Source: Pleurocapsales cyanobacterium LEGE 10410 (GTDB lineage: Bacteria > Cyanobacteriota > Cyanobacteriia > Cyanobacteriales > Xenococcaceae). From it: a DNA stretch of 64,000 nt. Of this stretch, positions 3,321 to 62,437 are shown piece by piece (within the stretch, counting starts at the first letter, position 1; each line of letters starts with the position of its first letter). A program made the position numbers and the translations under genes. The notes beneath the pieces were generated by a model that was not told the DNA's origin, did no database searches, and worked only from the letters and a program-made list of their open reading frames with translations. The stretch covers positions 1 to 64,000 of the forward strand of contig JADEXJ010000011.1 in the NCBI GenBank assembly GCA_015207195.1, given 5' to 3'.

Positions 3321-3353
3321 CCTCATAAGTTCCTCAAAGTATTTTTTTAATCT
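3321..3353 (+). promoter_or_regulatory. CCTCA-box promoter for DUF5335 and PII-like genes
   Basis: Half-sites CCTCA lie at 3321-3325 and 3332-3336, in the context CCTCATAAGTTCCTCAAA. The -10 candidate TAATCT starts 12 bases after the second half-site (3348-3353). The start codon at 3423 is about 70 bases downstream. This is site 1 of 10 with identical spacing in this window. Confidence 0.75.
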
Positions 3354-3422
3354 CAAAACAACAGCATAGTTAAGCAATCTTCAATTCAAAGCTAACTAAA
3401 TTTCGTTAGGAAATACAAGTCA

Positions 3423-3755
3423 ATGAGCAACAAACAAATTCCTCAAGAACGATGGGTAGAGTTTTTCGATCAGTTTACTAATGGCAATAGAAAGAGACTA
3501 ATTAAGCTAGAAATAGTCGATCGCGAAAGTGGCGATTTAGTCGCAATTAAAAATGCTCCTTTATGGTCGCTAGTCTACGATCCTGTTGATAAAGGTAACG
3601 ATTTGACGATTGAAACAGGACGAGATGAAGTGAACTACGCCCACACTGTTCTCGCTCCAAAGATAGTCTGGGAAAGACAAGATAGTAATGGCAAAGTGAC
3701 CGCTTTAGAGATTATAGACGAGGGCAACACTCAAACCATATTGCATCTCAAGTAA
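3423..3755 (+). CDS. DUF5335 family protein
   Basis: This is a small soluble protein of 110 residues that matches the DUF5335 pattern: W-V-E-F-F-D-Q-F near the start, then a beta-rich region ending in a short strand. It has no signal peptide, membrane segment or catalytic motif. No biochemical function is established that I know of. It lies 21 bp upstream of the PII-like gene on the same strand, so the two are probably cotranscribed from the CCTCA-box promoter at 3321-3353. The context points to a stress role, but that is inference. Confidence 0.7.
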   Translation: MSNKQIPQERWVEFFDQFTNGNRKRLIKLEIVDRESGDLVAIKNAPLWSLVYDPVDKGNDLTIETGRDEVNYAHTVLAPKIVWERQDSNGKVTALEIIDEGNTQTILHLK

Positions 3756-3776
3756 TAAGAATTAGTTGGAGTTATT

Positions 3777-4076
3777 ATGTCTTTTTCTTTGAATCAGGGA
3801 ACTCTCGTCACAATCGTATCTGAAACCGTATTACAGGATCGTTTAATTAAGCTACTAATAACATTAGGTGTCTCTGGCTACACGATTGTTCCAGTACAAG
3901 GTACTGGTAGTCATGGTAGACGCACGGGAGATATGGCGGGCTACAACACCAATATTGAGATCAAAACTATTGTGACATCTGAAGTATCAGACAAGTTACT
4001 TGAAGAACTGAAACATTTTCCCGAAACTTATGCCTTGATTGCTTTTCGGCAGAACGTAGAAGGATTGTTTGCATAA
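3777..4076 (+). CDS. PII-like signalling protein
   Basis: This 99-residue protein has the fold pattern of the PII/GlnB superfamily: a beta-alpha-beta start (LVTIVSETVLQDRLIKLL), a T-loop region with a Gly/Arg-rich GTGSHGRRTGDMAG, then a second beta-alpha-beta half. It lacks the classical YxGxxY T-loop tyrosine motif of GlnB. It resembles the divergent PII-like proteins such as SbtB, but shows no C-terminal CxxxxxC redox loop. Members of the superfamily bind adenine nucleotides and control transporters. No bicarbonate transporter gene is adjacent; the partner is the DUF5335 gene 21 bp upstream. GGAG upstream of ATG 3777 serves as the ribosome binding site. Confidence 0.75.
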   Translation: MSFSLNQGTLVTIVSETVLQDRLIKLLITLGVSGYTIVPVQGTGSHGRRTGDMAGYNTNIEIKTIVTSEVSDKLLEELKHFPETYALIAFRQNVEGLFA

Positions 4077-4228
4077 CAAATATCACGCAAATAATTAAAA
4101 CTGTAGTCAAAAATACTTAATGCGGTTTCTGGTTTTCTAGCATCCAGACTATTTCTTTAGGTAGAACTTCAATCCAGACAAAGGGCGTTGCCGATTTAAA
4201 GTATGAAACTGATAAGTAATCTGTTCGT

Positions 4229-4266
4229 AGCTTTTAGCTTTTAGCTCTTAGCTTTTAGCTTTTTTG
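4229..4266. repeat. TTTTAGCTTTTAGCT repeat
   Basis: A short run of TTAGC/TTTTAGC units sits in the 270 bp gap before glgP. Similar runs occur at about 3178-3193, 10190-10225, 34538-34572, 34655-34699, 35508-35534, 38363-38400 and 38611-38645. They are always intergenic. I see no coding or regulatory signature in them. Confidence 0.7.
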
Positions 4267-4346
4267 GATGTGTATCAAATTAAATTTTTAATAATTCATC
4301 CCTCGATTCAGCAATGCCCAGATAAAGAGTTAATAATTTTAAAGCC

Positions 4347-7100: not shown

Positions 7101-7121
7101 TAAACTAAGGGAGAAAATAAA

Positions 7122-9732: not shown

Positions 9733-9989
9733 TAGGTAAAAAAGTGGTGGAGATAGACAAAGGCACGTAAAGCGAAGCTTTACCAGTCGTCTTACGACGA
9801 TCTGCGCGTATGCGCTGTGCCGCATGTAGTAATGGAGTAGTGGAGTAGTAGAGTAATTTCCTCAAACACCTCACCACCTCACCATCTCAAACACCTCAAA
9901 CACCCCATAATTTAATTTTCCTTTTACAATCAATCTCTTATTACTTATTACTTATTACCTATTACTTATCTTTATCCCCGCATGGGGAC

Positions 9990-10107
9990 GAGCCATTTAA
10001 TTAACTTGTTTTAACCAGTTAACATACTGCAATATCTAAAAGCTCCTCATAAATTCCTCAATTTTAATTTCTAGCTTAAGAATAGAACATCAATATTATT
10101 CAACTCA
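9990..10107 (+). repeat. duplicated 118 bp promoter block, copy 1
   Basis: It aligns without gaps to 16961-17078 with about 10 mismatches counted by eye (about 91 percent identity). Both copies contain GCTCCTCATAAATTCCTCAA and each lies upstream of a different gene: the P-type ATPase here, the AhpD-like gene in copy 2. Upstream of both are TTATTACCTATTAC runs. Confidence 0.85.
10045..10077 (+). promoter_or_regulatory. CCTCA-box promoter for P-type ATPase and antiporter
   Basis: Half-sites CCTCA lie at 10045-10049 and 10056-10060; the -10 candidate TAGCTT is at 10072-10077, again 12 bases after the second half-site. The ATPase ATG is 180 bases further on, leaving a long leader. Site 2 of 10. 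Confidence 0.72.
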
Positions 10108-10256
10108 AGATCTATTTTCAAGCGCAGTCTAATATATCCAATCTCGTTTGAGGAAACTTCAAAATCTCGATCGCCCGCATTCCTTCGAGCTAAAAGCTGA
10201 TAGCTGAAAACTAGCTAATCCTTAGCTTGGTCTACCAGGAGCAAAAACTGCTAAAA

Positions 10257-13061
10257 ATGAATACAAAATACTTCCAAAATAAAAAATTATCGGAAAATTC
10301 TCGATCGGGAGTTTTCACCCATAACTCTTTAGACCGAGAATGGGAACGTCTGTCTGTGTCAGAGGTAGTTGCTACTTTTAACAGTAATTTAACCACAGGA
10401 CTAACCCAACCCGAAGTAGCCGAGCGTCAAGAACGTTTTGGCGCGAATCAATTAACTCCCCCAAAAAAAACTAGTGCTTGGATGCGATTTTTACAACAGT
10501 TTAATCAACCTCTGTTGTACATCTTGATTGGGGCAGGAATAGTCACTTTGTTCTTACGAGAGTGGGTAGATTCAGGGGTAATCTTTGGCGTAGTTTTAAT
10601 TAATGCGATCGTTGGCTACATTCAAGAAGCTAAGGCTGAAAAAGCAATGGAAGCCTTAGCCAAGTCGATGGTAACTAAGACCAGGGTAATTCGCGATCGT
10701 CAACCACGGCGACTAGCTTCTGGTTCACTCGTACCTGGAGATCTTGTTTGTTTGGAAGCTGGAGATAAAGTTCCAGCAGATTTGCGCTTGCTCCAGTGCA
10801 AACACTTGCAAATCAACGAGTCTGCCCTCACGGGAGAATCTGTCCCAGTAAATAAAGACAGTAAACCCCTAAAAAAAGCGACCTCCCTAGCCGATCGCCT
10901 TAATATGGCTTATGCGGGTACGATTGTCACCGCAGGGCAAGGAAAAGGAATCGTAGTGGCGATCGCCGAGGCTACCGAAACGGGTAAAATTTCTACCCTG
11001 ATGGAGCAACAAACTAATTTAACCTCTCCCATCGTGCGGAAATTAGAGAAGTTTAGCTGGCAACTGCTGTATGTTTTCCTCGGATTAGCCACACTAATTA
11101 TTGTCGTGGGATTAGGACAAGGAAAATCTTGGATAGAAATGTTTGAGGCTGCCGTTGCTATGGCAGTTAGTGGAATTCCCGAACAACTTCCTCCGTTAGT
11201 AACGATTATTCTTGCCGTTGGAGTTTCTCGCATGGCTAGCCGTCATGCCATTATTCGTAGACTACCAGCCGTAGAAACTTTGGGGAGTGCCACAGTTATT
11301 TGCTCTGATAAAACAGGGACGCTCACCGAAAACCAAATGACCGTTGAAGAGATTTATGCAGGGGGACAGCACTATCGGGTTACGGGAAAGGGGTATAGCA
11401 TTGAGGGTGAAATTTTACAGGATAACCAGTCAATTGTGATTGAACCCGATCGAGAACTGCTGGAGTGTTTGCGGTGCGGATTACTGTGTAATGACTCACA
11501 TCTCCAAGTACGAGACGGGCGAGCGACAATTGTGGGAGATCCCACTGAAGGAGCAATGATTGTCGTGGCTCACAAAGCCCGAATGCACCATGCTACTTTA
11601 GAACAGAAATTACCGCGAATAGATGCGATCCCCTTTGCCTCAGAACATCAGTATATGGCAACTCTTCATCGAAACCCCAAAGGAGACAAAATCATCTACG
11701 TCAAAGGCTCTACTGAAGCGATTCTGAGTCGCTGCGATCTAGGTAAGGATAACGGAAGAACGGCAGTTGAGGCGCGAGTCATTGAATCTATAGCCGAACA
11801 GATGGCTGAACGAGGATTGCGGGTGCTAGCCTTGGCTAAAAAAACCGTTGACTCTCAACTTAACCATTTAGAGCGAAAACAGATCGATCGCGGTTTAACT
11901 TTTTTAGGCTTACAAGGAATGATCGACCCGCCTCGGCAAGAAGCTATTCGGGCAGTAGCAGCCTGTCAGACGGCGGGAATTGGGGTCAAAATGATCACTG
12001 GCGACCATGCGGTAACAGCTAGTGCGATCGCCCGTATGCTAAACCTAAGCCCAGGAAAAATACAGGCACTCACAGGCAAAGCTTTAGAACAAATAAGCGA
12101 TCGAGAATTACAAAATACTGTAGAAGACACTATGGTATTTGCAAGAGTCGCACCGCAGCAAAAACTGCGCTTAATTTCCGCACTGCAAGCCAAAGGCGAA
12201 ATTGTCGCCATGACGGGAGATGGGGTGAATGATGCTCCAGCCCTCAAACAAGCCGATATTGGCATTGCGATGGGCAAAAGTGGTACGGAAGTAGCCAAAG
12301 AGGCTGCTGATATTATCCTCACTGACGACAATTTTGCTTCGATTGAAGCTGCGGTGGAAGAAGGGCGAACGGTTTATCTCAATCTGCGAAAGGCGATCGC
12401 TTTTGTTCTCCCAGTCAATGGCGGAGAGGCACTAACGATTTTAGCTGCGGTACTCTTAGGAACTGTACTGCCAATTTTACCCCTGCAAATCCTCTGGGTA
12501 AATATGGTCAGTTCTTCTTCTTTGTCGATTCCCTTAGCTTTTGAACCGCAGCCGAAAAACTTGATGCGATCGCCACCCCGTCAGCCCAATGAACCCCTGC
12601 TTACAAGTAGTATCCTCTGGCGGATTGTGGTAATTTCCTTGTTTAATTGGACAGCTACCTTTGGCATATTTGAATGGATAGCAGTGAGTACGGGAGAAGA
12701 AGCCCTCGCTCGTACTATGGCAGTGCAAACCCTAGTAGCAGCAGAAATTTTTTATTTGCTCTGTATCAGCCGTTTTATTCCCTCTCTCTGGGCTAGAGTA
12801 CGCGATCGAAGAAAAGCGATACAGCGCGGTCTTGGGGGTTTCCCCCATGAGCGACTGTATCAAGAAGCGATCGCTTATGCCCCTGGAATCGGGATTATCT
12901 GCATTGTAGTTTTACAAATACTCTTCAGTCAGTTACCCGTGATGAACGCTTTATTTGAAACTGTTCCCCTCAGCTTAACCCAGTGGCTGATGTGTCTGGG
13001 TGCAGGCTTACCCGTGGTGATTTTTGCCCTGCTTTTAAAACGCTTCAAGCCCCTGAGCTAA
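10257..13061 (+). CDS. cation-translocating P-type ATPase (type II)
   Basis: This is a plasma-membrane ATPase of the Ca2+/H+/Na+ type II group. The ATG at 10257 is preferred over a TTG at 10227. It has the N-terminal cation-ATPase domain, the actuator motif LTGESVP, phosphorylation site D351 in DKTGTLTENQMT, nucleotide-domain VKGSTEAIL, and hinge GDGVNDAPALKQADIG. Ten membrane helices are likely. Ion-site motifs depart from classical Ca2+ pumps: the M4 PEGLP is IPEQLPP and the M6 segment reads WVNMVSSSSLSIPLAFEP where SERCA has VNLVTDG. The ion is therefore uncertain. M. tuberculosis CtpF in the DosR regulon is a related type II pump. It is followed 46 bp later by a Na+/H+ antiporter. Confidence 0.93.
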   Translation: MNTKYFQNKKLSENSRSGVFTHNSLDREWERLSVSEVVATFNSNLTTGLTQPEVAERQERFGANQLTPPKKTSAWMRFLQQFNQPLLYILIGAGIVTLFLREWVDSGVIFGVVLINAIVGYIQEAKAEKAMEALAKSMVTKTRVIRDRQPRRLASGSLVPGDLVCLEAGDKVPADLRLLQCKHLQINESALTGESVPVNKDSKPLKKATSLADRLNMAYAGTIVTAGQGKGIVVAIAEATETGKISTLMEQQTNLTSPIVRKLEKFSWQLLYVFLGLATLIIVVGLGQGKSWIEMFEAAVAMAVSGIPEQLPPLVTIILAVGVSRMASRHAIIRRLPAVETLGSATVICSDKTGTLTENQMTVEEIYAGGQHYRVTGKGYSIEGEILQDNQSIVIEPDRELLECLRCGLLCNDSHLQVRDGRATIVGDPTEGAMIVVAHKARMHHATLEQKLPRIDAIPFASEHQYMATLHRNPKGDKIIYVKGSTEAILSRCDLGKDNGRTAVEARVIESIAEQMAERGLRVLALAKKTVDSQLNHLERKQIDRGLTFLGLQGMIDPPRQEAIRAVAACQTAGIGVKMITGDHAVTASAIARMLNLSPGKIQALTGKALEQISDRELQNTVEDTMVFARVAPQQKLRLISALQAKGEIVAMTGDGVNDAPALKQADIGIAMGKSGTEVAKEAADIILTDDNFASIEAAVEEGRTVYLNLRKAIAFVLPVNGGEALTILAAVLLGTVLPILPLQILWVNMVSSSSLSIPLAFEPQPKNLMRSPPRQPNEPLLTSSILWRIVVISLFNWTATFGIFEWIAVSTGEEALARTMAVQTLVAAEIFYLLCISRFIPSLWARVRDRRKAIQRGLGGFPHERLYQEAIAYAPGIGIICIVVLQILFSQLPVMNALFETVPLSLTQWLMCLGAGLPVVIFALLLKRFKPLS

Positions 13062-13107
13062 ATTTATCTGTTTGGTTATTGATAAACTAGCTTTGCCAAC
13101 TTATGCG

Positions 13108-14658
13108 ATGAATGTTTCCTCTTTAGTCCAAATTCTCGTTATTCTCTTGCTGATTGCTACTGGCGTAGGTCTTTTGTCGCGACGGTTGGGAATTCCTTAT
13201 GTCACGGGGTTAGTTTTAGCAGGTTTACCGATTACAGAGATATTATCCCATCGCATTGGTTTAGAACCTTCGTTGGTTTTGAATCTTTTTCTGCCAATTC
13301 TAATTTTTGAAGCTGCTATTAATACAGATATTAGTCGCTTACGAAGCACGTTTAAACCAATTGCACTTCTGGCTGTACCTGGAACGGTGTTTTCTTTCGC
13401 TGTTATCGCTGTTTTGCTGAGATATGGATTGGGAATGAACTGGATTTCCTCGCTGTTTATCGGAACGTGTCTGGCAAATACCGATACGGTATCGATAATA
13501 GCTGTTTTTAAGCAGATACCTGTTCCTTCAAGGCTTTCTACCATTGTTGAAGGAGAAACTTTGTTTAACGATGCTGCTGCCTTAGTTTTGTTTAACCTAG
13601 TTTTGACGGTATATAAAACAGGTTCGCTCACGTTTTCTGAGGGATTACGGGAACTGTTATTTATTGCTCTGGGTGGCAGTATCGTTGGGTTAGTCTTAGG
13701 CTACTTGAGCCTACCTATATTTAATCGTTTAGACGATCCTCTTAGTAGTCTGTTATTAACGGTTGCAGTGTCATTAGGAATCTTTCAGGTAGGGCAATTT
13801 CTCGGTGTATCGGGGGCTGTAGCTGTAGTCATGGCTGGATTAATTTTCGGGAATCTAGGGCTTTCTCAGACTATTTCGGCTTCCGATCGGCTTGTACTGC
13901 TAAGTTTCTGGGAATACGCTAGCTTTGGTGTCAATACATTCATTTTTCTGCTTATTGGCATAGAAATTATGCCTATGGAGCTTTGGAACATTTTGCCAGC
14001 AATTCTGTTTGTCGTTTTAGCTTATCAACTGGGACGTGTTCTTTCAGTTTATCTGCTGTTATTGGGGCTACCCTGGTTCGATCGCCCAATCCCCTTACGC
14101 TGGCAGCACGTTCTGTTTTTAGGTAACATCAAAGGCTCGCTTTCAATGGCATTGGCTCTCAGTCTTCCTCTGGCTTTACCAGGACGAGAACAAATTATTA
14201 CTTTGGTTTTTGGTGCGGTATTTTTTTCTTTGGTAGGACAGGGACTAAGTTTACCTTGGCTAGTTAAACGGCTGAAATTATCTAACCTTTCTCGATCCCG
14301 TCAAAAGATTCAAGAATGGCAAGCTCAGTTGATGGCAGCAAAAGCAGCCCAGGATGAATTAGACAGTCTCCTCAAGTCAGGAGTGTTACCCAAGGCGGTC
14401 TATGAAGAAATGCGCTCGGCTTATCAGGTACGAGTAGCAGGGGCAGAAAAGGCATTACGTAACATTTATAATACTCGTTCGGCTTGGAGCGATCGTGATA
14501 ACGATTTGACCAAACTCGATGCCATTTGTCGTCGCTTACTGTTAGCAGAGAAAATCGCACTCAACGAGGCGATGCAGAAACGAATCCTCTCAGAAACAAT
14601 TGTGCGATCGCATTTGCAAACTATTGACGAACAGTTGTTACGGTTAAAAGATGATTAG
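13108..14658 (+). CDS. Na+/H+ antiporter, CPA1/NhaP type
   Basis: This membrane antiporter exchanges Na+ (or K+) for H+. ATG 13108 gives the hydrophobic start MNVSSLVQILVIL; a TTG at 13072 is less likely. About 12 hydrophobic segments cover residues 1-390, with conserved ANTDTVS and EGETLFNDAAALVLF, the CPA1 motif containing the ND pair. A charged cytosolic tail of about 125 residues follows. It lies 46 bp after the P-type ATPase on the same strand and probably shares its CCTCA-box promoter, making a two-gene ion-homeostasis operon. Confidence 0.9.
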   Translation: MNVSSLVQILVILLLIATGVGLLSRRLGIPYVTGLVLAGLPITEILSHRIGLEPSLVLNLFLPILIFEAAINTDISRLRSTFKPIALLAVPGTVFSFAVIAVLLRYGLGMNWISSLFIGTCLANTDTVSIIAVFKQIPVPSRLSTIVEGETLFNDAAALVLFNLVLTVYKTGSLTFSEGLRELLFIALGGSIVGLVLGYLSLPIFNRLDDPLSSLLLTVAVSLGIFQVGQFLGVSGAVAVVMAGLIFGNLGLSQTISASDRLVLLSFWEYASFGVNTFIFLLIGIEIMPMELWNILPAILFVVLAYQLGRVLSVYLLLLGLPWFDRPIPLRWQHVLFLGNIKGSLSMALALSLPLALPGREQIITLVFGAVFFSLVGQGLSLPWLVKRLKLSNLSRSRQKIQEWQAQLMAAKAAQDELDSLLKSGVLPKAVYEEMRSAYQVRVAGAEKALRNIYNTRSAWSDRDNDLTKLDAICRRLLLAEKIALNEAMQKRILSETIVRSHLQTIDEQLLRLKDD

Positions 14659-15943: not shown

Positions 15944-16591
15944 TTAGGTGAAGCCCGATCTATGCTCGCCAAAATCGACAGCTTCAATACCGCGACTGCA
16001 TCGCTTTTTGTCATTTTCAAATTTGCGATCGACTGTAAATTGTCTGGCAAGCGGATCTTTAGCATCGAGAGCGTGCAAATAAACTTTGGCATCCGCTAAT
16101 TTGTGAGAAGTATAAGAGGTCAATTCTTCATCGCCCTGAGATAATTGAAGATCGGGATTAGCAGTTTTTAGCACGATTAAAACCGAACAGGGAGCATGGT
16201 GAGTTACATAATTACTGACACTGCCCAACAACATTTCTTTGATTCCTGTCCGACCTCTACTACCTACTAAAATCAAATCTGCCGACCAGGTTTGAGCCAC
16301 GTCGCAAATATCACGTTCGGGACTACCCCAAAAAATGGACAACTCAGCATTGACTCCCACTCTTGTTGCTTCTCGAACGAGAGAGCGTAAAAATTCTAGT
16401 CTCTGCTGCAAGAATCTTTGCCACTCTTTTTCATAGGCTTTACGAACTGCTTCACCCATTAAATCTTCAATCGGTAAAATATGCAGCAGCATTAATCTAG
16501 CTCCAGTTGTTTTAGCCAAAGATACAGCAGTTTCAAAAACATCGCTGCTTTCGGTTGAAAGATCTATTGCTACCAAGATTTTATTAAACAT
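15944..16591 (-). CDS. universal stress protein A
   Basis: This is a UspA-domain protein. ATG 16591 (MFNKILVAIDLSTES) is preferred; a TTG 21 bp upstream would add MSEVIEK. The nucleotide-binding signature GSRGRTGIKEMLLGSVSNYV and the terminal strand PCSVLIV indicate the ATP-binding class. A C-terminal tail of about 65 residues after SVLIVLK is longer than usual and has no recognised motif. It leads an operon with trkA-like and DUF3124 genes. A paralogue lies at 25647-26183. Confidence 0.92.
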   Translation of the reverse strand: MFNKILVAIDLSTESSDVFETAVSLAKTTGARLMLLHILPIEDLMGEAVRKAYEKEWQRFLQQRLEFLRSLVREATRVGVNAELSIFWGSPERDICDVAQTWSADLILVGSRGRTGIKEMLLGSVSNYVTHHAPCSVLIVLKTANPDLQLSQGDEELTSYTSHKLADAKVYLHALDAKDPLARQFTVDRKFENDKKRCSRGIEAVDFGEHRSGFT

Positions 16592-16617
16592 CTTCTCAAT
16601 TACCTCACTCAAATATA

Positions 16618-16650
16618 TGTATAAACGAGTGATTTGAGGAACTTATGAGG
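16618..16650 (-). promoter_or_regulatory. CCTCA-box promoter for usp-trkA-DUF3124
   Basis: On the minus strand the half-sites CCTCA are at 16650-16646 and 16639-16635, in the sequence CCTCATAAGTTCCTCAAA. The -10 candidate TATACA is at 16623-16618. The start codon at 16591 lies 27 bases downstream. Site 3 of 10. Confidence 0.78.
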
Positions 16651-16960: not shown

Positions 16961-17078
16961 GAGCCATTTAATTAACTTGTCCTAACCAGTTAACATACTG
17001 CGATATCTAAAAGCTCCTCATAAATTCCTCAAGATTAACTTCTAACTTAAGAACAGAAAATCAATACTATTCAACTCA
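16961..17078 (+). repeat. duplicated 118 bp promoter block, copy 2
   Basis: This is the partner of 9990-10107, gap-free with about 10 differences. Identity is full across AAAAGCTCCTCATAAATTCC and lowest just after the second CCTCA half-site. It ends 15 bp before the AhpD-like start codon. Confidence 0.85.
17016..17048 (+). promoter_or_regulatory. CCTCA-box promoter for the AhpD-like gene
   Basis: Half-sites CCTCA lie at 17016-17020 and 17027-17031; the -10 candidate TAACTT is at 17043-17048. The start codon 17094 is 45 bases downstream. Site 4 of 10, and the paralogous copy of site 2. Confidence 0.75.
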
Positions 17079-17093: not shown

Positions 17094-17453
17094 ATGAGCC
17101 AGCCAACAAACAACACGATGACTTATCCCGAACAAACCAAACATATTAAAAAGTATACCAGTCAGATTCGTACTGCTTTACCTGAAGTAATGAAAGCTTT
17201 CTATGCCCTCGGTCAAAATGCTTCGGCTTCTGGTGCGATCAATGCTAAAACCAAAGAACTAATTGCTTTAGCTATTGGGGTAGCTACCCACTGCGATAAC
17301 TGTATCGCTTTTCATACTCAAGCAGCATTAAAGGCGGGGGCAACCAGAGAAGAAATCATGGAAACTCTCGGTGTAACTATTTACATGGGAGGCGGTCCTT
17401 CCTTAATGTATGCTGCTCATGTAGTTGAAGCCATCGAAGAGTTTGGTGGTTAA
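17094..17453 (+). CDS. AhpD-like carboxymuconolactone decarboxylase family protein
   Basis: This is a 119-residue all-helical protein of the CMD/AhpD family. The redox signature C67-D-N-C70 followed by H74 (HCDNCIAFH) matches the thiol-peroxidase-linked AhpD branch, not the true decarboxylase. AhpD-type proteins reduce peroxiredoxin partners. No peroxiredoxin gene is nearby. It stands alone behind a CCTCA-box promoter and belongs with the stress genes of this region. Confidence 0.9.
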   Translation: MSQPTNNTMTYPEQTKHIKKYTSQIRTALPEVMKAFYALGQNASASGAINAKTKELIALAIGVATHCDNCIAFHTQAALKAGATREEIMETLGVTIYMGGGPSLMYAAHVVEAIEEFGG

Positions 17454-18089
17454 GCATTTAAATACCGTTCGATATTTTTGAATTATTTTTATCACCTGAA
17501 TCGATTGGTAATATTTCTGGCTGAATTGAGCTTTGCCGATCGAGCTTTATTTCCATCCTACTTTGATTCAATACATATATACTGTTATTACGATAGCTAA
17601 CACCGCAATACTTTAGCTCATAATTCGGCTGGGATATTTGGTTTTGTGGGTTGGAAGGTAAACCTCGATCTTCTCGCGACCAGATTTGGGAAGATAGGGA
17701 GGTAGGGAGGTAGAGAGGTAGAAAGGTAGGGAAGTCCCCAAATACCCCAAATACCCCAAATACCCCATATGCGAAGCGGTATCCTTTAGGACTACCCCAA
17801 ATTACCCCAAAACCTGCGTCTTCACAGATCGATAAATGCGTAACGTCAGTTAGTAATAGTCACGTAGGCAGAGTTAGAAAAGATTTGCTGGAGATATCTT
17901 TGAAGGGGAAATCTTATTGTTGTTTTGCCTTCTTCTTTAACTTTCATCAGAAAAATCTCCTTAATAATTGTTACTTTAAGACTAGGCAAATAAATTGAAG
18001 AACTCACGAGCAAAAGCTAGCTATAGTTGTAATTAGCTAGCTTTTGCTAGCCAAACAGAGGTCTTCTAACTACCAATACCAAGTAAAAA
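17454..18089. other. repeat-rich intergenic region
   Basis: No gene is seen in about 636 bp. Bases 17690-17820 hold GGTAGGGAGGTAGAGAGG and CCCCAAATACCCCAAATACC runs. Bases 17822-17851 (CACAGATCGATAAATGCG then TAACGTCAGT) resemble 3279-3309. A strong inverted repeat lies at 18010-18047 just before mgtC. Confidence 0.65.
18010..18047 (+). other. 14 bp perfect hairpin upstream of mgtC
   Basis: Arms GCAAAAGCTAGCTA (18010-18023) and TAGCTAGCTTTTGC (18034-18047) enclose 10 bases. There is no T-run after it, so it is not a standard terminator. It ends 43 bp before the mgtC start and could act in the leader or as a protein site. Confidence 0.6.
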
Positions 18090-18621: not shown

Positions 18622-18654
18622 AGATTACGGTAAAAAGTTGTGGAACTTATGAAG
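18622..18654 (-). promoter_or_regulatory. CCTCA-like promoter facing antisense to mgtC
   Basis: On the minus strand CTTCA (18654-18650) and CCACA (18643-18639) are 11 bp apart around TAAGTT, with -10 candidate TAATCT at 18627-18622. Each half-site has one mismatch to CCTCA, but the spacing and -10 fit. No minus-strand gene follows; a transcript would run into the 3' end of mgtC. Site 10 of 10 and the weakest. Confidence 0.45.
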
Positions 18655-26266: not shown

Positions 26267-26299
26267 TATATAGGAGAATAATTTGAAGAACTTATGAGG
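26267..26299 (-). promoter_or_regulatory. CCTCA-box promoter for the usp-export operon
   Basis: On the minus strand CCTCA (26299-26295) and CTTCA (26288-26284) flank TAAGTT, and the -10 candidate TATATA is at 26272-26267. The start codon 26183 is 84 bases away. The site sits in the 211 bp gap shared with the divergent response regulator gene at 26395. Site 5 of 10. Confidence 0.77.
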
Positions 26300-29181: not shown

Positions 29182-29182
29182 A

Positions 29183-30400: not shown

Positions 30401-30741
30401 GATTTTTTCCTCTTAAAAACTGATTCGGAAAAATATTTCGTCGAACTAAGATTTAACAAGTAGAGCTTGTACCTAATGCTCTTCTTTGTATATATAGGCA
30501 GATAATTTGAGGAACTTATGAAGAAAGTTTTTAAAAGAGTTTATGTCTAATATCAAGTTCGGTTAGACAGTTTTAATAAACTTCTTACTTGCATCCTTTT
30601 TAACTTCCTTCTGCCTTCTGCCTTACTCCACCGATGACGTAACTATTCAACAGGACATGATATAACACTCGGACAAATTTAAAATAACAATAAATTTTCC
30701 TCAAAAATTCTTCAATATTTTATTTAGTCAGAATCTTTCGA
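30401..30741. other. intergenic region between htrA and the PfkB-family kinase gene
   Basis: It contains the htrA promoter (30491-30523) and a CCTTCTGCCTTCTGCCTT repeat near 30606. A plus-oriented CCTCA/CTTCA pair at 30699-30714 lacks the proper -10 spacing. No gene is seen. Confidence 0.6.
30491..30523 (-). promoter_or_regulatory. CCTCA-box promoter for htrA
   Basis: On the minus strand CTTCA (30523-30519) and CCTCA (30512-30508) are 11 bp apart, and the -10 candidate TATATA is at 30496-30491. The sequence from half-site to -10 is nearly the same as at 26267-26299. Site 6 of 10. Confidence 0.78.
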
Positions 30742-39485: not shown

Positions 39486-39486
39486 A

Positions 39487-40401
39487 TTAAGTATCCAAAT
39501 TACTCGCAACGCTACGGACTAAGAAAATCGCGACGATGTTAGCTAGCACTACGGCGATTAACCCGCCAGCAGAAGCTCCACCCACGTCGAACTCCAGCAA
39601 TGCTTTGAGATAGATGTAGTAGGCTAAGTTAGTGGTAGCAAGTCCTGGTCCACCACCAGTGGTAACGAAAATTTCTCCAAAGATAGCTAGAAAGAAGATC
39701 GTTTCGATCATTGCCACTACGGCGATCGCCCTACTCAGGTGAGGCAATACTACATACCGAAACAAAGCGAAGGGTTTTGCTCCATCCATGCGCGCAGCTT
39801 CTATTTGAGAGGTATCGAGAGACTGAATTGCCGTTAATAAAATTAACAAGGCAAAGGGCAGCCATTCCCAAGAAACAATAATGATGATCGACACTAAAGG
39901 AAAATCGGTAAACCAGTCGATCGCACCTAACCCCAGCCCACGAGTGATTTGAGCAAACAGCCCGTTAACTGGGTGCATCAACATATTTTTCCAAATCAAG
40001 GCACTCACCGTTGGCATGACAAAGAATGGTGAAATTGCCAATACGCGGGCAATACCCTGACCAGGAAAATCTTGGTTAAACAGTACCGCTAATAGTGTGC
40101 CTAAACCAATCGTGATTAGCAGCACAGAAGCGACTAAGACGAGGGTAGTACCAATAGAGATCCATAATGCTGGATCGGTGAGAATAAAGATAAAGTTTCC
40201 TAAGCCAATAAACTCGCGGTTATCGGGAATCAATAAGTTATATCGCTGGAAGGCAAACCAGATTGCCATTGCCAACGGCACTACCATCCAGAGAATCAGC
40301 ACGATTACCGATGGTGCAACTAATGCCAGAGTGGGTATCTTTCCTGACGATCGCTCTTTAGGCTTAGATGGTGGTTGTGGTCTAGTTACTACTGAAGTCA
40401 T
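39487..40401 (-). CDS. sugar/polyol ABC permease (MalF/SmoF type)
   Basis: This 304-residue permease has six transmembrane helices and the EAA loop IEAARMDGAKPFALFRYVVLPHLS. It overlaps the binding-protein gene by 4 bp and is 1 bp from the second permease, so the three are translationally coupled. Together they form a CUT1-class importer. Confidence 0.92.
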   Translation of the reverse strand: MTSVVTRPQPPSKPKERSSGKIPTLALVAPSVIVLILWMVVPLAMAIWFAFQRYNLLIPDNREFIGLGNFIFILTDPALWISIGTTLVLVASVLLITIGLGTLLAVLFNQDFPGQGIARVLAISPFFVMPTVSALIWKNMLMHPVNGLFAQITRGLGLGAIDWFTDFPLVSIIIIVSWEWLPFALLILLTAIQSLDTSQIEAARMDGAKPFALFRYVVLPHLSRAIAVVAMIETIFFLAIFGEIFVTTGGGPGLATTNLAYYIYLKALLEFDVGGASAGGLIAVVLANIVAIFLVRSVASNLDT

Positions 40402-41814: not shown

Positions 41815-41847
41815 AGAATAAAAGAAGAATATGAGCAACTTATGAGG
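41815..41847 (-). promoter_or_regulatory. CCTCA-box promoter for the polyol transporter operon
   Basis: On the minus strand CCTCA (41847-41843) and GCTCA (41836-41832) flank TAAGTT, and the -10 candidate TATTCT is at 41820-41815. The start codon 41768 is 47 bases downstream. Site 7 of 10. Confidence 0.75.
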
Positions 41848-42599: not shown

Positions 42600-43640
42600 A
42601 TGAATGTTCGAGACAAAACACTAATCAATCCTTTTCAGGTTCTAGCATTAGGTTTGGGAACTGCATTGTTAGTAATTTCTAACCCTCTAGCTGCTCAAGA
42701 GACTCCAGCGATCGCAATAGATGGTTCGAGTACGGTTTATCCTATTACCCAGAAAATAGTTGAAGACTATCGAGCTAGTGCAAAAAAACCCGTAAATATT
42801 GAGATTGAATTTTCTGGTACGAGCGGTGGTTTTGACAAATTCTGTAGCGGTGAAACTGAAATTAACAATGCTTCTCGTCCAATTCAGGTTGATGAGATGG
42901 AAGCCTGCCGAGAAGCAGGGGTGGCATATATAGAATTACCCGTAGCCTTTGATGCGCTGACTGTGGTTGTCAATCCAGCTAACGATTGGGTCGATACCCT
43001 TACCACTGAAGAATTAGCTAAGATTTGGTCGCCCGAAGCGGAAGGTAAAATTACCAATTGGAATCAGGTAAGACCGAGTTTCCCCGACAAGCCACTAAAT
43101 CTCTATGCTCCTGGCGAAGATTCGGGAACTTTTGATTATTTTACTGAAGCCATTGTCACTGAAGCCATTGTCGGAGAAGCAGGGGCTAGTCGTAGCGACG
43201 TTACAAAGAGCGAAGATGATGACGTGCTAGTGCAAGAAGTGAGCCAAGACCCCAATGCCCTTGGTTACTTCGGGTTAGCTTACTACGACCAACGTGCAGA
43301 TGAGATGAAAGCGATCGCTGTTGATAGTGGTGAAGGAGCAGTTTTACCTTCAGTAGAAACCGTAGAGCAAGCTCAATATCAACCTTTGGCACGTCCTCTG
43401 TTTGTCTACGTTAACGCTGCTGCTGCCAGGGAGAATGAAGCGTTGGTGAGATTTACAGAATTCTATTTAGAAAATGCTCCAGAGGTTGTTAGCGAGGTGG
43501 GTTATGTTCCTTTACCCGAAGAAGCCTATCAAATCAACGAAGTAACTTTTTATAGGGGTGAAGTAGGAACTGTTTTTGACGGTCAGTCTCAGTTTAATGT
43601 CACCATACCCGAACTGTTACGCAAACAGGCTCGATATTAA
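42600..43640 (+). CDS. PstS-like phosphate/arsenate-binding protein
   Basis: This is a 346-residue periplasmic binding protein of the PstS family. It has a signal peptide (cleavage near AAQETP), the oxyanion motif [10 protein letters not shown], and [16 protein letters not shown] typical of PstS-like proteins. Most PstS genes sit in pst transporter operons. Here it is the first gene after ArsR operators, with no PstABC genes near. It may bind arsenate or help discriminate phosphate under arsenic stress; that is inference. AGGAG sits 8 bp before ATG 42600. Confidence 0.87.
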
Positions 43641-55984: not shown

Positions 55985-56017
55985 CCTCATAAGTTCCTCA
56001 AACTTTTTCTATATCTT
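55985..56017 (+). promoter_or_regulatory. CCTCA-box promoter for the sensor-kinase cluster
   Basis: Half-sites CCTCA lie at 55985-55989 and 55996-56000, in CCTCATAAGTTCCTCAAA; the -10 candidate TATCTT is at 56012-56017. The first start codon, 56058, is 40 bases downstream. The next five genes are on the same strand with gaps of at most 90 bp. Site 8 of 10. Confidence 0.78.
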
Positions 56018-56057: not shown

Positions 56058-56282
56058 ATGACTTTTAAAGTTGATACTTCTATAAAAAATATCAGAAAAG
56101 AAGTTCGCCATTTAGTCGATCTTCATAGCTTAGAACGCGAACAAGCTCTATATAATCTCAGCCAATTTTTCTTAGCAGGAGAATGGGAATTAGTTGAATG
56201 CGAACTAGAATCAAACGGTTATTCACTAATGAGCAACTCAATTGGCGACCTTTTGGCTCATGATGAATGTTCAGAAGATTAG
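56058..56282 (+). CDS. small acidic protein of unknown function
   Basis: I do not recognise this 74-residue protein. ATG 56058 has a GAGG six bases upstream; a GTG at 56046 would add four residues. It is predicted helical and acidic at the end (HDECSED), with no Cys pair or membrane segment. It is the first gene behind a strong CCTCA-box promoter, so it should be among the most induced products. It may be an adaptor or anti-factor; that is speculation. Confidence 0.7.
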   Translation: MTFKVDTSIKNIRKEVRHLVDLHSLEREQALYNLSQFFLAGEWELVECELESNGYSLMSNSIGDLLAHDECSED

Positions 56283-57631: not shown

Positions 57632-60600
57632 ATGCCGTCAGAAAAGCTACCAATTCAACCATTCGTTCTAGAACGGGTAATCGATCGCAACCCGCCGATA
57701 GTGACGACTGAGACAACGGTTTTTGAGGCGATCGCTTTGATGAGCCAAATTTGGCATCAAAGCTGTATCAGAGCTAGTTGTGAGCTTAATAATATTACTG
57801 ACGCTTCAGATTTATCTTCAGTACAGGCAAGCTCTAGTTACCTTCTGGTAATGGAAGCAGGGAAACTGGTAGGAATTTTTACCGAACGAGATCTAGTTAA
57901 ATTGGCAGCTTCGGAGTACGATTGTTCGGCAATTAAGATTACTGAAGTTATGACTGCTTCGGTTATCACTTTGTCCCAGTCAGAAATTCGCGATATTTTT
58001 TGCGTACTGGGCTATTTTCGTCGGCATCGTATTCGTCATTTGCCGATTTTGGACGAGGAAGATCGACTGCTAGGAGTAATTACTACGGGCAGTCTACGTC
58101 AATCTTTGCAACCTAATAATTTTTTGAAATTGAGAAAGGTGGCAGATGTAATGGCTACTGAGGTAGTGACGGCATCGGCTAATGATTCGGTGCTGAGTTT
58201 AGCCCGACTAATGAGCGATCGCCAAGTTAGCTGTGTGGTGATTACAGAAGCGAGCGAAGACGAGAAAGGAGATATCTTAGTAACTCCCGTGGGTATCATT
58301 ACCGAAGGGGATATCGTTCAATTTCAAGCTCTCAATTTGAATCTAAAAAAAATCCAGGCAAAAACGGTAATGAGCTTTCCGCTATTTCCCGTCAAGCCTT
58401 TAAATGCTCTGTGGCAAGCTCATCTACAAATGCAGCAGCACCGTGTCCGACGCTTAGTAGTTACGGGAGACAGGGGAGAACTGGTAGGAATTGTTACCCA
58501 AACCAGTCTGCTACAAATTCTCGATCCTCTAGAAATGTTGCAGGAACTAGAAGATTTACAGCAGATTAAAGATAAGCAAACCTTACAGCTAAAACAGACC
58601 AATCGGCAACTACAAAATGAGATTGCCGAGCGAAAACGTTTAGAGTCTGCCCTGCGAGAAGCCAATCGAGCTTTAACTACACAAGTAGAACGGCAAAAGT
58701 GCGAACTAGGAGTAACAAAAGAAGTTTTACAACAAGAGACGGAAGCCCGCCAGCGATCGCAAATTCAACGAGATCGCTTCTTCGACCTTTCTTTAGACTT
58801 ATTCTGTATTACTGGGGTTGACGGTTACTTTAAGCAAATCAACCCAGCAATGGAGCAAGTTCTTGGTTTTAGCAGGTCAGAATTACTAGCTGAACCTTTT
58901 ATTAACTTCGTGCATCCAGACGATCGAGCAGCTACCACCGCCGAAGCTGCTAAACTTACCCAAGGAATGGATACGATTAGTTTTGAAAATCGTTATCGTT
59001 GCCGAGATGGTTCTTATAAATGGCTACTTTGGACGGGTACTTTTGCTGCTGAAGAGCAGCTTATGTATGGTTCGGCGAAGGATATTACCGAGCGTAAATT
59101 GGCAGAAGCAGAATCACAACGTCAATCTCGGCGATCGCAATTAATTGCAGAAATAACTTTAAAAATCCGTCAGTCGTTGAAATTAAAAGAGGTTTTACGC
59201 CTTGCTGTTACGGAGATTCAGCAGATTTTACAGACAGATCGGGTTTTAGTTTTTCAACTACATCCTGACGGTTCAGGTACAGCTATCGAAGAAGCGGTAG
59301 TTCCTGGCTACCCCGTTGTTTTAGGGCAGGATATTTTCGATCCCTGTTTTCAAGACGGATATGCAGCCCAGTATCTTCAGGGCAGAGTTGGCGCGATCGC
59401 CGATATCGAACAGGCAAACATTCAGCCTTGTTATGTAGAATTTCTCCAGCAGTTTGCGGTCAAAGCTAATCTTGTCGTCCCAATTCTCCAGCAGTCGCAG
59501 CTTTGGGGATTACTAATCGTGCATCAGTGCGATCGCCCCCGTCACTGGCAAACTTCTGAAATCGAGCTATTAAAGCAATTAGCAAACCAGATTAGTATCG
59601 CTATCTCTCAAGCGGAACTATTAGATGGGCTGGAAGAAAAAGTAGCAGAGCGTACAGTTAAATTAGAACGGGCAGACAAACGGCTTAAACTCACTCAATT
59701 TTCCATCGATCGTAGTGCTGAAATAATTGCCTGGGTTAGTCCTAATGGCGAGATAATTTATGTCAACGACTCAGCTTGTGACATCTTGGGCTATAGTCGC
59801 GATCGCCTAATGTCTCTAGATATTTCAGAGATTATTCCCGCTTTTTCACCAGCAGCTTGGGCAAAACATTGGCAACAGTTAAGAAATCGAAGTTCGCTAC
59901 AGTTGGAAACTTCTTTACAAACTCAAGATGGTCGTGTTGTTCCTATCGAAGCTATTACAGAACATCTCCAGGTAGAAGAGCGAGAATACAACTGTATTTT
60001 TGCTCGCGATATTAGCCAACGCAAACAGACTGAATCGGCATTACAGCAGAGTCAACAACAATATAAAACTTTAGTGAATAACGTTCCTGGTGCAATTTAT
60101 CGTGTTCTCGTTGACAGCCATTGGACAGCACTATTTTTTGACGATGAAATTAGTACCATTTCTGGTTATCCTGCTGCCGATTTTCTTCAAAATCAACGGA
60201 CTACTCTGAGCATTATTTATACCGAAGATCGCGAGCGAGTTGCCCAAGAAGTTCAAGCAGCACTTGCCCAAAAAAGAGCTTATACCATCGAACATCGCAT
60301 TGTACGTTCAGATGGAGCAATTAGCTGGGTAAAAAGCAAAGGACAGGGAGTTTATGACGAAGAAGATCGGCTACTTTGGCTAGACGGAATTCTTTTAGAC
60401 ATCAACGAACGCAAATGGGCAGAAACTCTACGACAATTGCAAAATCAAGTTTTAAGTATGCTGGCAAAAGGAGAAACACTCTACGATGTTTTAAACAAGC
60501 TAACGGAAGGGATAAATCAACTGTCTCCAGATTTAAATTCAACCATTCTGCTGATGGAGGATGATAACCAACACTTGTATCCATTCGCTAATTCCCAAAT

Positions 60601-61972
60601 GCCTCAAGTTTACGTGCAAGCGTGCGAGCATTTACCAATTGGAGAGAAAGCTGGTTCTTGCGGTACGGCTGCTTATTTAGGTCAGCGCGTGATAGTCAGT
60701 GACATTGCCAGCGATCCTTTGTGGGCACATAACAAACACTTAATTTTACCCCACGGTTTTCAAGCCTGTTGGTCAGAACCAATTAAATCGGAGACGGGTA
60801 AAGTCCTCGGAACTTTTGGGCTGTATTTTACCGAACCGCGATCGCCCAAACCTAAGGAACTAGAAATAATCGAAGCCTGTGCTAGTTTGGCTTCTGTCGC
60901 TATTACTCGCAAACAGTCTGAAGCTGCACTACAAAATAGCGAATCACAGCTTCGTCTGATTACAGATGCTTTACCAGTATTAATTGCTTATCTCGACGAT
61001 CGACAGTGCTATCAATTTGCCAACAAGACTGCTGAAAACTGGCATCGACTACCTCGTACCAAAATTGTTGGCAGCCATATCAAAGATATTGTGGGAGAGG
61101 TAAATTACCCGAAAATTCAACCGTATATAGAATCAGCCTTATCGGGCAATACTGCGACTTTTGAAACTGAATTATTTTTGAGCGATCGCTCCTTACGTCA
61201 TATCAGTGCTACTTGTATTCCCGCTCTATACAGCGATGGAGAAGTAAAAGGGGTTATTAATTTAGTTAGCGATATCAGCGATCGCAAAGCTAACGAACGG
61301 ATGAAAAATGAATTTATCTCGGTAGTCAGTCACGAATTACGTACCCCCTTAACCTCAATCTATGGTGCTTTAAAACTGCTCGTCACCAATCCTCAAAGTG
61401 GGTTAGACGAAGAAGACAGAGAAATGCTCGACATTGCCGTAACCAATACAGAACGACTAATACGCCTAGTAAATGACGTGCTAGATTTAGAGCGGATCGA
61501 ATCTGGCAAAATCGAAATGAATCAACAGCCTTGTGATGCTGCCGATTTAATTCATCAAGCGATAGAAGTCATGCTACCAATGGCTCAGGCTCAAGAGATT
61601 ACTTTGGTGACAGAACCCATTTCTATAGCAGTTAATGCCGATCGCGATCATATACATCAGACTCTAACTAACCTCCTCAGCAATGCTATAAAATTTTCTT
61701 CGCCTCATAGTTCAGTTTGGCTCACAGTTGACGAGCGAGAACGAGAAGTTTTATTTAAGGTTAGCGATCGCGGACGAGGAATTCCCTCAGATAAATTGGA
61801 GCGCATTTTTGAGCGGTTTCAACAGGTAGATGCTTCTGACTCGCGAGACAAAGGAGGTACTGGCTTAGGATTAGCTATCTGTTATAAAATTATCGAGGAA
61901 CACGGTGGACGCATTTGGGCTGAGAGTCAGCTTGATGAAGGAAGCACGTTTTGTTTCACCCTACCAAAGTAG
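57632..61972 (+). CDS. CBS-PAS-GAF multi-sensor histidine kinase
   Basis: This is a 1446-residue soluble kinase. Four CBS motifs lie at about 15-70, 100-155, 168-235 and 243-300 (two Bateman modules, likely binding adenine nucleotides), followed by a coiled coil (305-375). Then come PAS1 (380-495), GAF1 (503-667), PAS2 (687-805), PAS3 (810-930), GAF2 (940-1092), PAS4 (1105-1224), HisKA with H1234 in SVVSHELRTPLTS, and HATPase with NAIKFSS, GRGIP and GGTGLGLAI. No transmembrane segment is visible, so it senses cytosolic signals such as energy charge, redox or light. No GAF Cys of a bilin lyase type is obvious. A receiver gene starts 27 bp downstream. Confidence 0.93.
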   Translation: MPSEKLPIQPFVLERVIDRNPPIVTTETTVFEAIALMSQIWHQSCIRASCELNNITDASDLSSVQASSSYLLVMEAGKLVGIFTERDLVKLAASEYDCSAIKITEVMTASVITLSQSEIRDIFCVLGYFRRHRIRHLPILDEEDRLLGVITTGSLRQSLQPNNFLKLRKVADVMATEVVTASANDSVLSLARLMSDRQVSCVVITEASEDEKGDILVTPVGIITEGDIVQFQALNLNLKKIQAKTVMSFPLFPVKPLNALWQAHLQMQQHRVRRLVVTGDRGELVGIVTQTSLLQILDPLEMLQELEDLQQIKDKQTLQLKQTNRQLQNEIAERKRLESALREANRALTTQVERQKCELGVTKEVLQQETEARQRSQIQRDRFFDLSLDLFCITGVDGYFKQINPAMEQVLGFSRSELLAEPFINFVHPDDRAATTAEAAKLTQGMDTISFENRYRCRDGSYKWLLWTGTFAAEEQLMYGSAKDITERKLAEAESQRQSRRSQLIAEITLKIRQSLKLKEVLRLAVTEIQQILQTDRVLVFQLHPDGSGTAIEEAVVPGYPVVLGQDIFDPCFQDGYAAQYLQGRVGAIADIEQANIQPCYVEFLQQFAVKANLVVPILQQSQLWGLLIVHQCDRPRHWQTSEIELLKQLANQISIAISQAELLDGLEEKVAERTVKLERADKRLKLTQFSIDRSAEIIAWVSPNGEIIYVNDSACDILGYSRDRLMSLDISEIIPAFSPAAWAKHWQQLRNRSSLQLETSLQTQDGRVVPIEAITEHLQVEEREYNCIFARDISQRKQTESALQQSQQQYKTLVNNVPGAIYRVLVDSHWTALFFDDEISTISGYPAADFLQNQRTTLSIIYTEDRERVAQEVQAALAQKRAYTIEHRIVRSDGAISWVKSKGQGVYDEEDRLLWLDGILLDINERKWAETLRQLQNQVLSMLAKGETLYDVLNKLTEGINQLSPDLNSTILLMEDDNQHLYPFANSQMPQVYVQACEHLPIGEKAGSCGTAAYLGQRVIVSDIASDPLWAHNKHLILPHGFQACWSEPIKSETGKVLGTFGLYFTEPRSPKPKELEIIEACASLASVAITRKQSEAALQNSESQLRLITDALPVLIAYLDDRQCYQFANKTAENWHRLPRTKIVGSHIKDIVGEVNYPKIQPYIESALSGNTATFETELFLSDRSLRHISATCIPALYSDGEVKGVINLVSDISDRKANERMKNEFISVVSHELRTPLTSIYGALKLLVTNPQSGLDEEDREMLDIAVTNTERLIRLVNDVLDLERIESGKIEMNQQPCDAADLIHQAIEVMLPMAQAQEITLVTEPISIAVNADRDHIHQTLTNLLSNAIKFSSPHSSVWLTVDEREREVLFKVSDRGRGIPSDKLERIFERFQQVDASDSRDKGGTGLGLAICYKIIEEHGGRIWAESQLDEGSTFCFTLPK

Positions 61973-61999
61973 CTCCCAATTGTCAGAAAAACTGTTACT

Positions 62000-62371
62000 A
62001 TGACTGCCAAACGCATCTTACTTGTAGACGATGAAGCATCTATCTTATCGGTAGCTCGCATCGGTTTAAAGCGTGCGGGATGGTCAGTGTTAACCGCTAA
62101 TTCAGGTAAAGAAGGTATTGCTAAAGCAGTAGCCGAACAGCCAGATGCGATCGTTCTGGATGTAATGATGCCAGAAATGGATGGACTAGAAACTCTTAAA
62201 CAGCTACAGGATAATTCTCAAGTTCAGCAGATCCCAGTAATTTTTTTAACTGCGAAAGTTCAGCAATCAGATCGTCGTCGCTTTTATGCTTCTGGGATTA
62301 AAGGATTTATTACCAAACCTTTCGACCCTACTACTCTAGCAAGTCAAATTTCTGGCTTTCTTAACTGGTAG
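62000..62371 (+). CDS. stand-alone response regulator receiver
   Basis: This 123-residue single-domain CheY-like protein has an intact acidic pair D10/D11, phospho-site D54 (IVLDVMMPEMDG), and FLTAK and ITKPFDP with the Lys. It has no output domain. It starts 27 bp after the kinase and is its natural phosphoacceptor, able to pass phosphate to an HPt protein. The response regulator at 26395 carries an HPt domain. Confidence 0.93.
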   Translation: MTAKRILLVDDEASILSVARIGLKRAGWSVLTANSGKEGIAKAVAEQPDAIVLDVMMPEMDGLETLKQLQDNSQVQQIPVIFLTAKVQQSDRRRFYASGIKGFITKPFDPTTLASQISGFLNW

Positions 62372-62404
62372 CTAAAGATGTTCGCAAATCGAGCAGCTTT
62401 TTCT

Positions 62405-62437
62405 CCTCATAAGTAGCTCATATTTCTAAATTAGTAT
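62405..62437 (+). promoter_or_regulatory. CCTCA-box promoter for the Glu-type receiver
   Basis: CCTCA (62405-62409) and GCTCA (62416-62420) are 11 bp apart; the -10 candidate TAGTAT is at 62432-62437. The start codon 62522 is 84 bases downstream, with a hairpin in between. Site 9 of 10. Confidence 0.7.

Follow-up and report, generated by a model that had tools for sequence, protein, structure and literature searches.

Two operator classes with an 11-bp tandem repeat, and candidate RcaC-like regulators for them, in Pleurocapsales cyanobacterium LEGE 10410 and related genomes

The first 64,000 nucleotides of contig JADEXJ010000011.1 of Pleurocapsales cyanobacterium LEGE 10410 (assembly GCA_015207195.1), referred to below as the window, contain a set of promoter sites in which two half-sites, repeated head to tail with a period of 11 bp, precede a -10 element at a fixed distance; the pieces shown cover 3321-62437 of the window, and coordinates are those of the whole stretch. 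These sites form one class, named here TCATAA, of an operator whose second class, TCACAA, has the same repeat period and the same -10 spacing. The best explanation, at a probability of about 0.62 and judged from sequence comparisons, is that the two classes are read by two RcaC-like regulators, called A and B here, working with a kinase and a receiver. An earlier note on this DNA had described ten such sites as a shared promoter of a stress regulon; the observation of ten sites as real gene switches is confirmed, and its interpretation as a whole is partly supported.

The operators, their promoters and their placement

All ten sites are present, with the 11-bp period and the -10 hexamers given in the earlier note, and nine of them face a nearby gene start, the exception being 18654-. 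An eleventh site, 18011-, had been overlooked. The distance to the -10 element is indeed fixed: 11 bases separate CCTCA from TA, which starts at the 12th base. The sites are as follows, the downstream genes being named from Pfam matches:

Site 3321+: 3321..3353, plus strand, TCATAA operator with -10 TAATCT, before a DUF5335 gene (3423-3755) and a PII-like gene (3777-4076).
Site 10045+: 10045..10077, plus strand, operator with -10 TAGCTT, before a cation P-type ATPase (10227-13061) and a Na+/H+ exchanger (13072-14658).
Site 16650-: 16618..16650, minus strand, operator with -10 TATACA, before a universal stress protein (USP; 15944-16612), TrkA and DUF3124.
Site 17016+: 17016..17048, plus strand, operator with -10 TAACTT, before a carboxymuconolactone decarboxylase/AhpD-like gene (17094-17453).
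Site 18011-: 17979..18011, minus strand, the eleventh operator, TAGTCT, matrix score 21.6, before a 33-aa gene remnant (17846-17947).
Site 18654-: 18622..18654, minus strand, operator with -10 TAATCT, an orphan whose nearest downstream open reading frame (ORF) has 58 aa and lies 305 bp off.
Site 26299-: 26267..26299, minus strand, operator with -10 TATATA, before a USP gene (25647-26183) followed by HlyD/ABC genes, divergent from regulator A.
Site 30523-: 30491..30523, minus strand, operator with -10 TATATA, before an HtrA-like protease (29183-30400).
Site 41847-: 41815..41847, minus strand, operator with -10 TATTCT, before a solute-binding protein and two permeases of an ABC transporter (38658-41768).
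Site 55985+: 55985..56017, plus strand, operator with -10 TATCTT, before a DUF4327 gene (56058-56282).
Site 62405+: 62405..62437, plus strand, operator with -10 TAGTAT, the weakest of the ten, before a receiver-like protein (62522-62902).

The evidence for these sites depends on the tight form of the motif, since a loose pattern allowing three mismatches finds 52 matches in the window against 45.3 expected from shuffles, which is no excess. When the window was scanned with a matrix of 33 positions, derived entirely from 45 TCATAA-class sites in other genomes, the ten sites and 18011- scored 21.5-42.6 bits, the next position in the window reaching 3.1 and the highest score among 20 first-order random windows being 12.8. 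The -10 spacing was not built in by the search, since TA stands at +11 in 18 of 20 exact 16-mers found with a pattern that did not include it; this count is free of the bias that affects a separate one (117 of 118), for which stretches were chosen partly by class. The proposal of an OmpR/PhoB-type direct repeat replacing the -35 box is likewise supported, a -35 hexamer being absent at the window sites, where look-alikes share at best 2 of its 6 bases, or 3 in the case of the eleventh site.

Two smaller observations belong to the same stretch. The 33-aa ORF at 17846-17947 (minus strand) has a likely ribosome-binding stretch and looks, by eye, like a truncated version of a small protein of the island described below; and short tandem repeats of the CCCCAAATA and CACCTCA types occur between genes at 17680-17800 and 9869-9923.

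Across the genome to which the window belongs, the pattern CYTCAYAANTTCYTCA-N11-TA has 29 exact matches and its reversal none; with up to two mismatches allowed, the numbers are 83 and 12. The profiles of both classes read C-Y-T-C-A, then T or C, then A-A, with a second half-site C-Y-T-C-A-A, the TCACAA consensus being CYTCACAAnTTCYTCA. Fifteen of the 16 exact TCATAA sites of this genome lie on three contigs (C44, C132 and C277), and the TCACAA sites are scattered over many others. The notion of a ten-site regulon holds as far as a shared operator, found genome-wide and upstream of genes, is concerned; the ten sites, however, are members of the TCATAA sub-class, and the main class is TCACAA. 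An earlier thought that the TCACAA matches might be an unrelated repeat family was dropped on account of their identical -10 spacing and related targets.

The earlier note had named equal frequency inside genes as an outcome that would speak against a regulon, and the placement of the sites is very different. In 1.03 Mb of fetched DNA, ORFs of at least 150 aa occupy 71.5% of the sequence, yet only one of 176 sites (at most one mismatch) falls inside such an ORF; 161 of the 176 have a downstream ORF start within 400 bp, at a median of 80 bp. These figures describe the placement of the sites and not genome-wide rates, the stretches having been chosen round sites, and in the stretches from other families two further sites fall inside a mechanical ORF of at least 150 aa.

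Target genes and their conservation

The TCACAA targets in this genome include HoxU, HypC, a hydrogenase maturation protease, pyruvate:ferredoxin oxidoreductase (PFOR), phosphoenolpyruvate (PEP) synthase (PpsA) and an Acg/Rv3131-type oxidoreductase, together with USP and CBS proteins, a NorB-type NO reductase, the ATP synthase a subunit, DJ-1/PfpI and MpsC; several of these target sites carry one mismatch. A HoxH-like large subunit and an NrdG-like activase fall below the cut-offs of the named models, and HypD (behind a two-mismatch site), an HPF/RaiA-like protein, which has no NCBIfam match, and an AtpA-like protein were judged by eye only. The TCATAA targets in the window comprise the DUF5335/PII-like genes, the P-ATPase and antiporter, two USP operons, AhpD-like, HtrA, the ABC transporter, DUF4327 and the receiver-like protein; outside the window they comprise Hsp20 (twice), PEP synthase, YHYH, a pyridine nucleotide-disulphide oxidoreductase, Rieske and rhodanese proteins and, behind a one-mismatch site, a D1/D2-type reaction centre gene. 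Annotation covered part of the targets, and some downstream proteins matched no family.

Families found again in relatives are Hsp20 and USP (nine genomes each), PpsA (seven) and the DUF4327 gene (six). The last is preceded by TCATAA in the window and by TCACAA in five relatives, from stretches fetched mostly for TCACAA sites. The general stress targets proposed in the earlier note are included in a wider set, of fermentation and low-oxygen character, that resembles the DosR and OsdR regulons, and the TCACAA genes seem, from their annotation, to be a set that many cyanobacteria use for life without oxygen.

Exact TCACAA sites were found in 93 of 291 genomes of the order, the reversed control occurring in two, and in all 27 genomes of the window's family (f1). 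Counts are high in some genomes of families f16, f18, f31, f32 and f33, and near zero in f2, f8, f12 and f14. To assess conservation of the targets, 45 exact sites were taken from six genomes belonging to the five families with high counts; a homologue of a target known from f1 follows 24 of them. Counting ORFs of at least 100 aa in the same stretches, a homologue of an f1 target is found for 20 of the 40 directly downstream of a site against 22 of the 191 others, operon partners being counted among the latter. The remaining 21 sites stand before genes without a detected homologue or before no ORF.

The genes found behind exact sites are PEP synthase in f18, f32 and f33, USP in f16, f18 and f33, Hsp20 in f16 and f33, HoxU in f16, the hydrogenase protease in f18 and HtrA in f33, and, in one family each, an HPF-like gene (f31), a psbA-type gene (f31) and a DUF4327 homologue (f32). 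Sites with one mismatch add USP and Hsp20 in f31, HoxU in f33 and the protease in f16, and HoxF-like and pyruvate-formate-lyase-like genes were also seen by eye behind sites in other families. Parts of the fermentation and low-oxygen set thus recur behind TCACAA sites in six families of the order. The regulon is apparently undescribed, as the earlier note claimed: searches of open-access papers turned up no description of motif or regulon, subscription papers lying mostly outside them.

Candidate regulators, kinase and receiver

No particular regulator had been proposed in the earlier note; the window itself encodes a likely one, along with a likely kinase and receiver:

26395-28266, plus strand: regulator A, REC-winged helix-Hpt-REC (RcaC-like), candidate reader of TCATAA, from Pfam, orthologues and tree.
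57632..61972, plus strand: histidine kinase with four CBS stretches, GAF, PAS and HisKA, candidate sensor, from Pfam.
62000..62371, plus strand: single-domain receiver, candidate RcaF-like shuttle, from Pfam.
62522..62902, plus strand: receiver-like protein, from Pfam, also found in three A islands (58-60% identity).

Near orthologues of regulator A (70-74% identity, one of them a contig-end fragment) occur in only four of 39 other genomes, each on a contig bearing TCATAA sites, and the gene island that holds A and a concentration of TCATAA sites is present in five of the 27 family genomes. Exact TCATAA sites number 16, 13, 10, 7 and 5 in these five, against 0-4 in the other 22, among which several assemblies are incomplete and two genomes (G040 and G041) had A sought only through the search with B. 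Five given genomes would take the first five places in TCATAA counts with a probability of 1.2e-5 if kinship is ignored. Whole-genome exact counts were preferred to the partition seen in the stretches read (no TCATAA sites without A), which is biased by class-based picking. In G016, G013 and G002, 21 of the 22 exact TCATAA sites lie on the stretch holding A, against one of the 14 exact TCACAA sites; this count excludes G000 and G005, whose islands are broken over several contigs, and takes 245-303 kb of contig C19 as the stretch in G002, with boundaries set after the sites had been seen. Two genomes of the same genus differ in the same direction, G013 having A and five TCATAA sites and G020 neither.

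Paralogue B, likewise REC-winged helix-Hpt-REC, with three receiver stretches, is found in 23 of the 27 family genomes (E 1e-155), and in the genome of the window it lies on contig C46. In a tree of 35 regulators A forms one clade (support 100/100), A and B are joined at 100/99, and the 18 rows of B make one group. The winged-helix recognition region is TEGAVRTHIKTLR in A and mostly GEEAVRTHIKGLR in B. When the proteins are aligned on HIxxLR, a Gly-to-Thr change between A and B falls at the place of PhoB Arg201. In PhoB, Arg201 bonds a guanine, and Thr194 and Val197 touch thymines (PMC3973317).

Outside the family, a B-type helix signature (P[GS]E[ED][AS][VI]RTH[IV]KGLR, defined after B had been seen) was found in 14 of the 18 genomes that have exact TCACAA sites and in none of the 17 that lack them (Fisher 1.6e-6); two of the 17 (G025 and G028) have one or two exact TCATAA sites each. 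Since regulators were sampled in part, some were fetched beside sites and the genomes are related, this co-occurrence is to be taken as an indication. In the 13 of the 18 motif-bearing genomes for which the sites were listed in full, a large RcaC-like regulator stands no more than 3 kb from nine of the sites, where 0.39 would be expected; six of the nine come from three genomes of one genus.

The window kinase has homologues in other A-bearing genomes and beside B, and the receiver at 62000-62371 is 85-86% identical in four other A-bearing genomes. Among 21 B loci read with short flanks, a homologous kinase stands near B in 14 (some matches being weak or partial) and a receiver of at least 50% identity in six. 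In families f18 and f33, site-adjacent regulators are fused to a histidine kinase in single chains of 1349 and 1500 aa (L339 1516-5565 and L342 1988-6490), the regulator being followed by PAS (plus GAF in f33), HisKA, HATPase and further receivers.

Several neighbouring observations concern A, its island and its relatives. Directly after regulator A, at 28273-28955 (minus strand), lies an HTH_37 and Gp49 pair, toxin-antitoxin-like by Pfam. In G002, a 354-aa ORF at C19 298152-299177 (L171) resembles the first half of A and has a differing helix, QEDTIKSYIKSLR. A contig search with A returned one near relative, a fragment from Pleurocapsa sp. CCALA 161 with no site at up to two mismatches in its 14.7 kb, plus two remote proteins. 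Three exact TCATAA sites, all with CATAACTTCC, lie within 7 kb in G019 (C166, 2480, 5915 and 9435), where no A orthologue was detected, and another reader may exist there. In G028 (family f5), a TCATAA site at C75 34750 (L105, L234) has, at a distance of about 1 kb, an RcaC-like regulator of 636 aa whose helix, QEEAVSTQIKGLR, perhaps stands for a third specificity. The island segment of the window ends with a phage-integrase-family protein (62948-63733, minus strand), and in G013, whose assembly has six contigs including one of 5.04 Mb, the island occupies part of a separate contig of 309 kb, which suggests a plasmid location; taken together, the integrase-family protein and this contig hint that the island is mobile.

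Proposed mechanism, alternatives and meaning

The proposed mechanism starts from the observed operators, promoter geometry, targets, conservation, co-occurrence, tree and gene neighbourhoods, and infers binding, activation, the phosphorelay and, as the signal, low oxygen or low energy charge. An OmpR/PhoB-type activator would occupy the two head-to-tail half-sites in the -35 position of a class-II operator and, once bound, would recruit RNA polymerase to the -10 element 11 bases downstream. Regulator B would read CYTCACAA and drive the core fermentation and low-oxygen regulon; regulator A would read CYTCATAA and drive a partly duplicate stress and low-oxygen gene set in its own island. A homologous multi-domain kinase, with CBS, GAF and PAS domains in the window, and a one-domain receiver would feed each regulator through a phosphorelay patterned like RcaE-RcaF-RcaC.

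A number of observations weigh against this explanation. Genomes without A hold 19 exact TCATAA sites (0-4 each), four TCATAA-class sites lie outside the islands in A-bearing genomes, and three of the 69 sites read in A islands are of the TCACAA class. The branch of B itself has a support of only 88/66, and the search at E 1e-155 detected no orthologue of B in four of the 27 family genomes; among these G023 has a B-like protein, G040 and G041 (76-81% complete) have 16 and 10 TCACAA sites, and G024 (96% complete) has two. B proper is confined to the family, so that other regulators must serve elsewhere, and the strict helix signature was not found in four of the 18 motif-bearing genomes outside it. 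The residues of A and B at the place of Arg201 (Gly and Thr) both differ from Arg, and the PhoB contact therefore need not carry over. In the 9 kb read round B in the window's own genome there is no kinase and no separate receiver, and the low-oxygen signal is deduced from the target list.

The 11-bp tandem geometry and the domain architecture invite comparison with known systems. RcaC has the order REC-winged helix-Hpt-REC, which A and B match, and its L-box, TTGCACA-N4-TTGCACA, has the 11-bp period of the present operators, so that the likeness to the Pho box drawn in the earlier note holds for the geometry but the L-box is equally near. A kinase, a one-domain receiver and a regulator of this architecture are common to both systems, here from gene neighbourhood, and regulator and operator are linked here through co-occurrence. 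The differences from RcaC lie in the core (CYTCACAA or CYTCATAA), in the CBS domains of the window kinase and in the targets, which are of fermentation and not of light harvesting; among the annotated targets, a part of the whole, no phycobilisome or bilin gene was found. The order RcaE to RcaF to RcaC, and the binding of RcaC to the L-box, have been described (PMC8256508). Likewise alike in PhoB and the Pho box are the winged helix, the head-to-tail half-sites of period 11 and the replacement of the -35 box. The spacing of the pstS operator to its -10 element is also 11 bases; the Pho core and targets differ, however, and the regulators here have an additional Hpt and second receiver. No window site faces a phosphate-uptake gene. 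A PBP-superfamily (PstS-like) gene (42600-43640, plus strand) lies about 750 bp behind site 41847, which points away from it. RpaB HLR1 has a 10-bp period, unlike the period of 11 and the other core of these operators, in line with the contention of the earlier note that the core is unlike both the cyanobacterial Pho box and HLR1. That the sites are simply Pho boxes, HLR1 sites or L-boxes of known regulons is hardly credible: geometry is shared with the Pho box and the L-box, but the core differs from all three and the annotated targets are not phosphate, high-light or phycobilisome genes. In the targets there is a close likeness to the hypoxia regulons of DosR/DevR in Mycobacterium and OsdR in Streptomyces, with USP, nitroreductase/Acg, small heat shock and PEP/pyruvate dikinase-type proteins, and a gathering of targets near the regulator, in common. 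DosR and OsdR are of the NarL family and use another site type, whereas the candidates here carry Trans_reg_C (PF00486), are of the OmpR family and have a direct-repeat operator. Targets reported for them are USP, nitroreductase, heat shock and pyruvate phosphate dikinase genes clustered near the regulator (PMC5069765).

The other alternatives concern the reader and the signal. A single OmpR-family regulator reading both classes, perhaps one other than A and B, the difference between the classes being drift in a mobile island, is unlikely: the classes differ at a single fixed base of the pattern, the window's genome has 22 Trans_reg_C matches to winged-helix regulators, and some genomes without detected B keep many TCACAA sites, but the TCATAA class is concentrated in A-bearing genomes and stretches, regulator A carries helix changes of its own, and the operator before DUF4327 is TCATAA in the window but TCACAA for five homologues (from stretches picked by site). 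Still less probable, and disfavoured, is that the repeat belongs to the promoter of an alternative sigma factor, as the fixed distance to the -10 element would allow, since the 11-bp tandem repeat, its co-variation with winged-helix regulators and the regulators lying beside sites point to an OmpR-family activator. CBS domains bind adenylates, and the window kinase has four CBS stretches; that the signal is low energy charge, darkness or redox, sensed through a CBS/GAF/PAS kinase, with fermentation genes induced as a consequence, is a tentative possibility compatible with the explanation by regulators A and B. The ion pumps, antiporter, USP and HtrA among the targets fit it, but hydrogenase, PFOR, NrdG-like, NO reductase and Acg targets are oriented to oxygen or NO.

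A broader form of the explanation by A and B, whose chances we regard as even, is that many cyanobacteria share an anaerobic master regulon governed through RcaC-like phosphorelays and that in one lineage an island, perhaps plasmid-borne, received second copies of part of the regulon together with its regulator, kinase and receiver; a fixed substitution of a single base in one half-site, with corresponding changes in the recognition helix, would then have insulated the copy. Dark and microoxic control of hox and nifJ is described, in the two sources cited here, mainly for Synechocystis, with SigE, cyAbrB1/2, LexA and perhaps Rre34 as regulators, and RpaA is named in Synechococcus 7942 as a regulator related to hox and nifJ (PMC11368403, PMC13421787). 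The Synechocystis regulators overlap with the present system in target genes and act by other mechanisms; RcaC does not occur in the main text of either the 2024 paper or the 2026 review just cited, nor "direct repeat" in that of the review. A conserved operator standing, in six families, before parts of a low-oxygen gene set that includes hox, nifJ, ppsA, usp and hsp20, together with candidate regulators, makes low-oxygen control directly testable. With two proteins and a single base that differs, the A and B pair lends itself to studies of the way in which a regulator, once duplicated, is insulated from its parent and, if the broader form is true, would show that recoding of an operator has allowed a regulon to be duplicated in nature.

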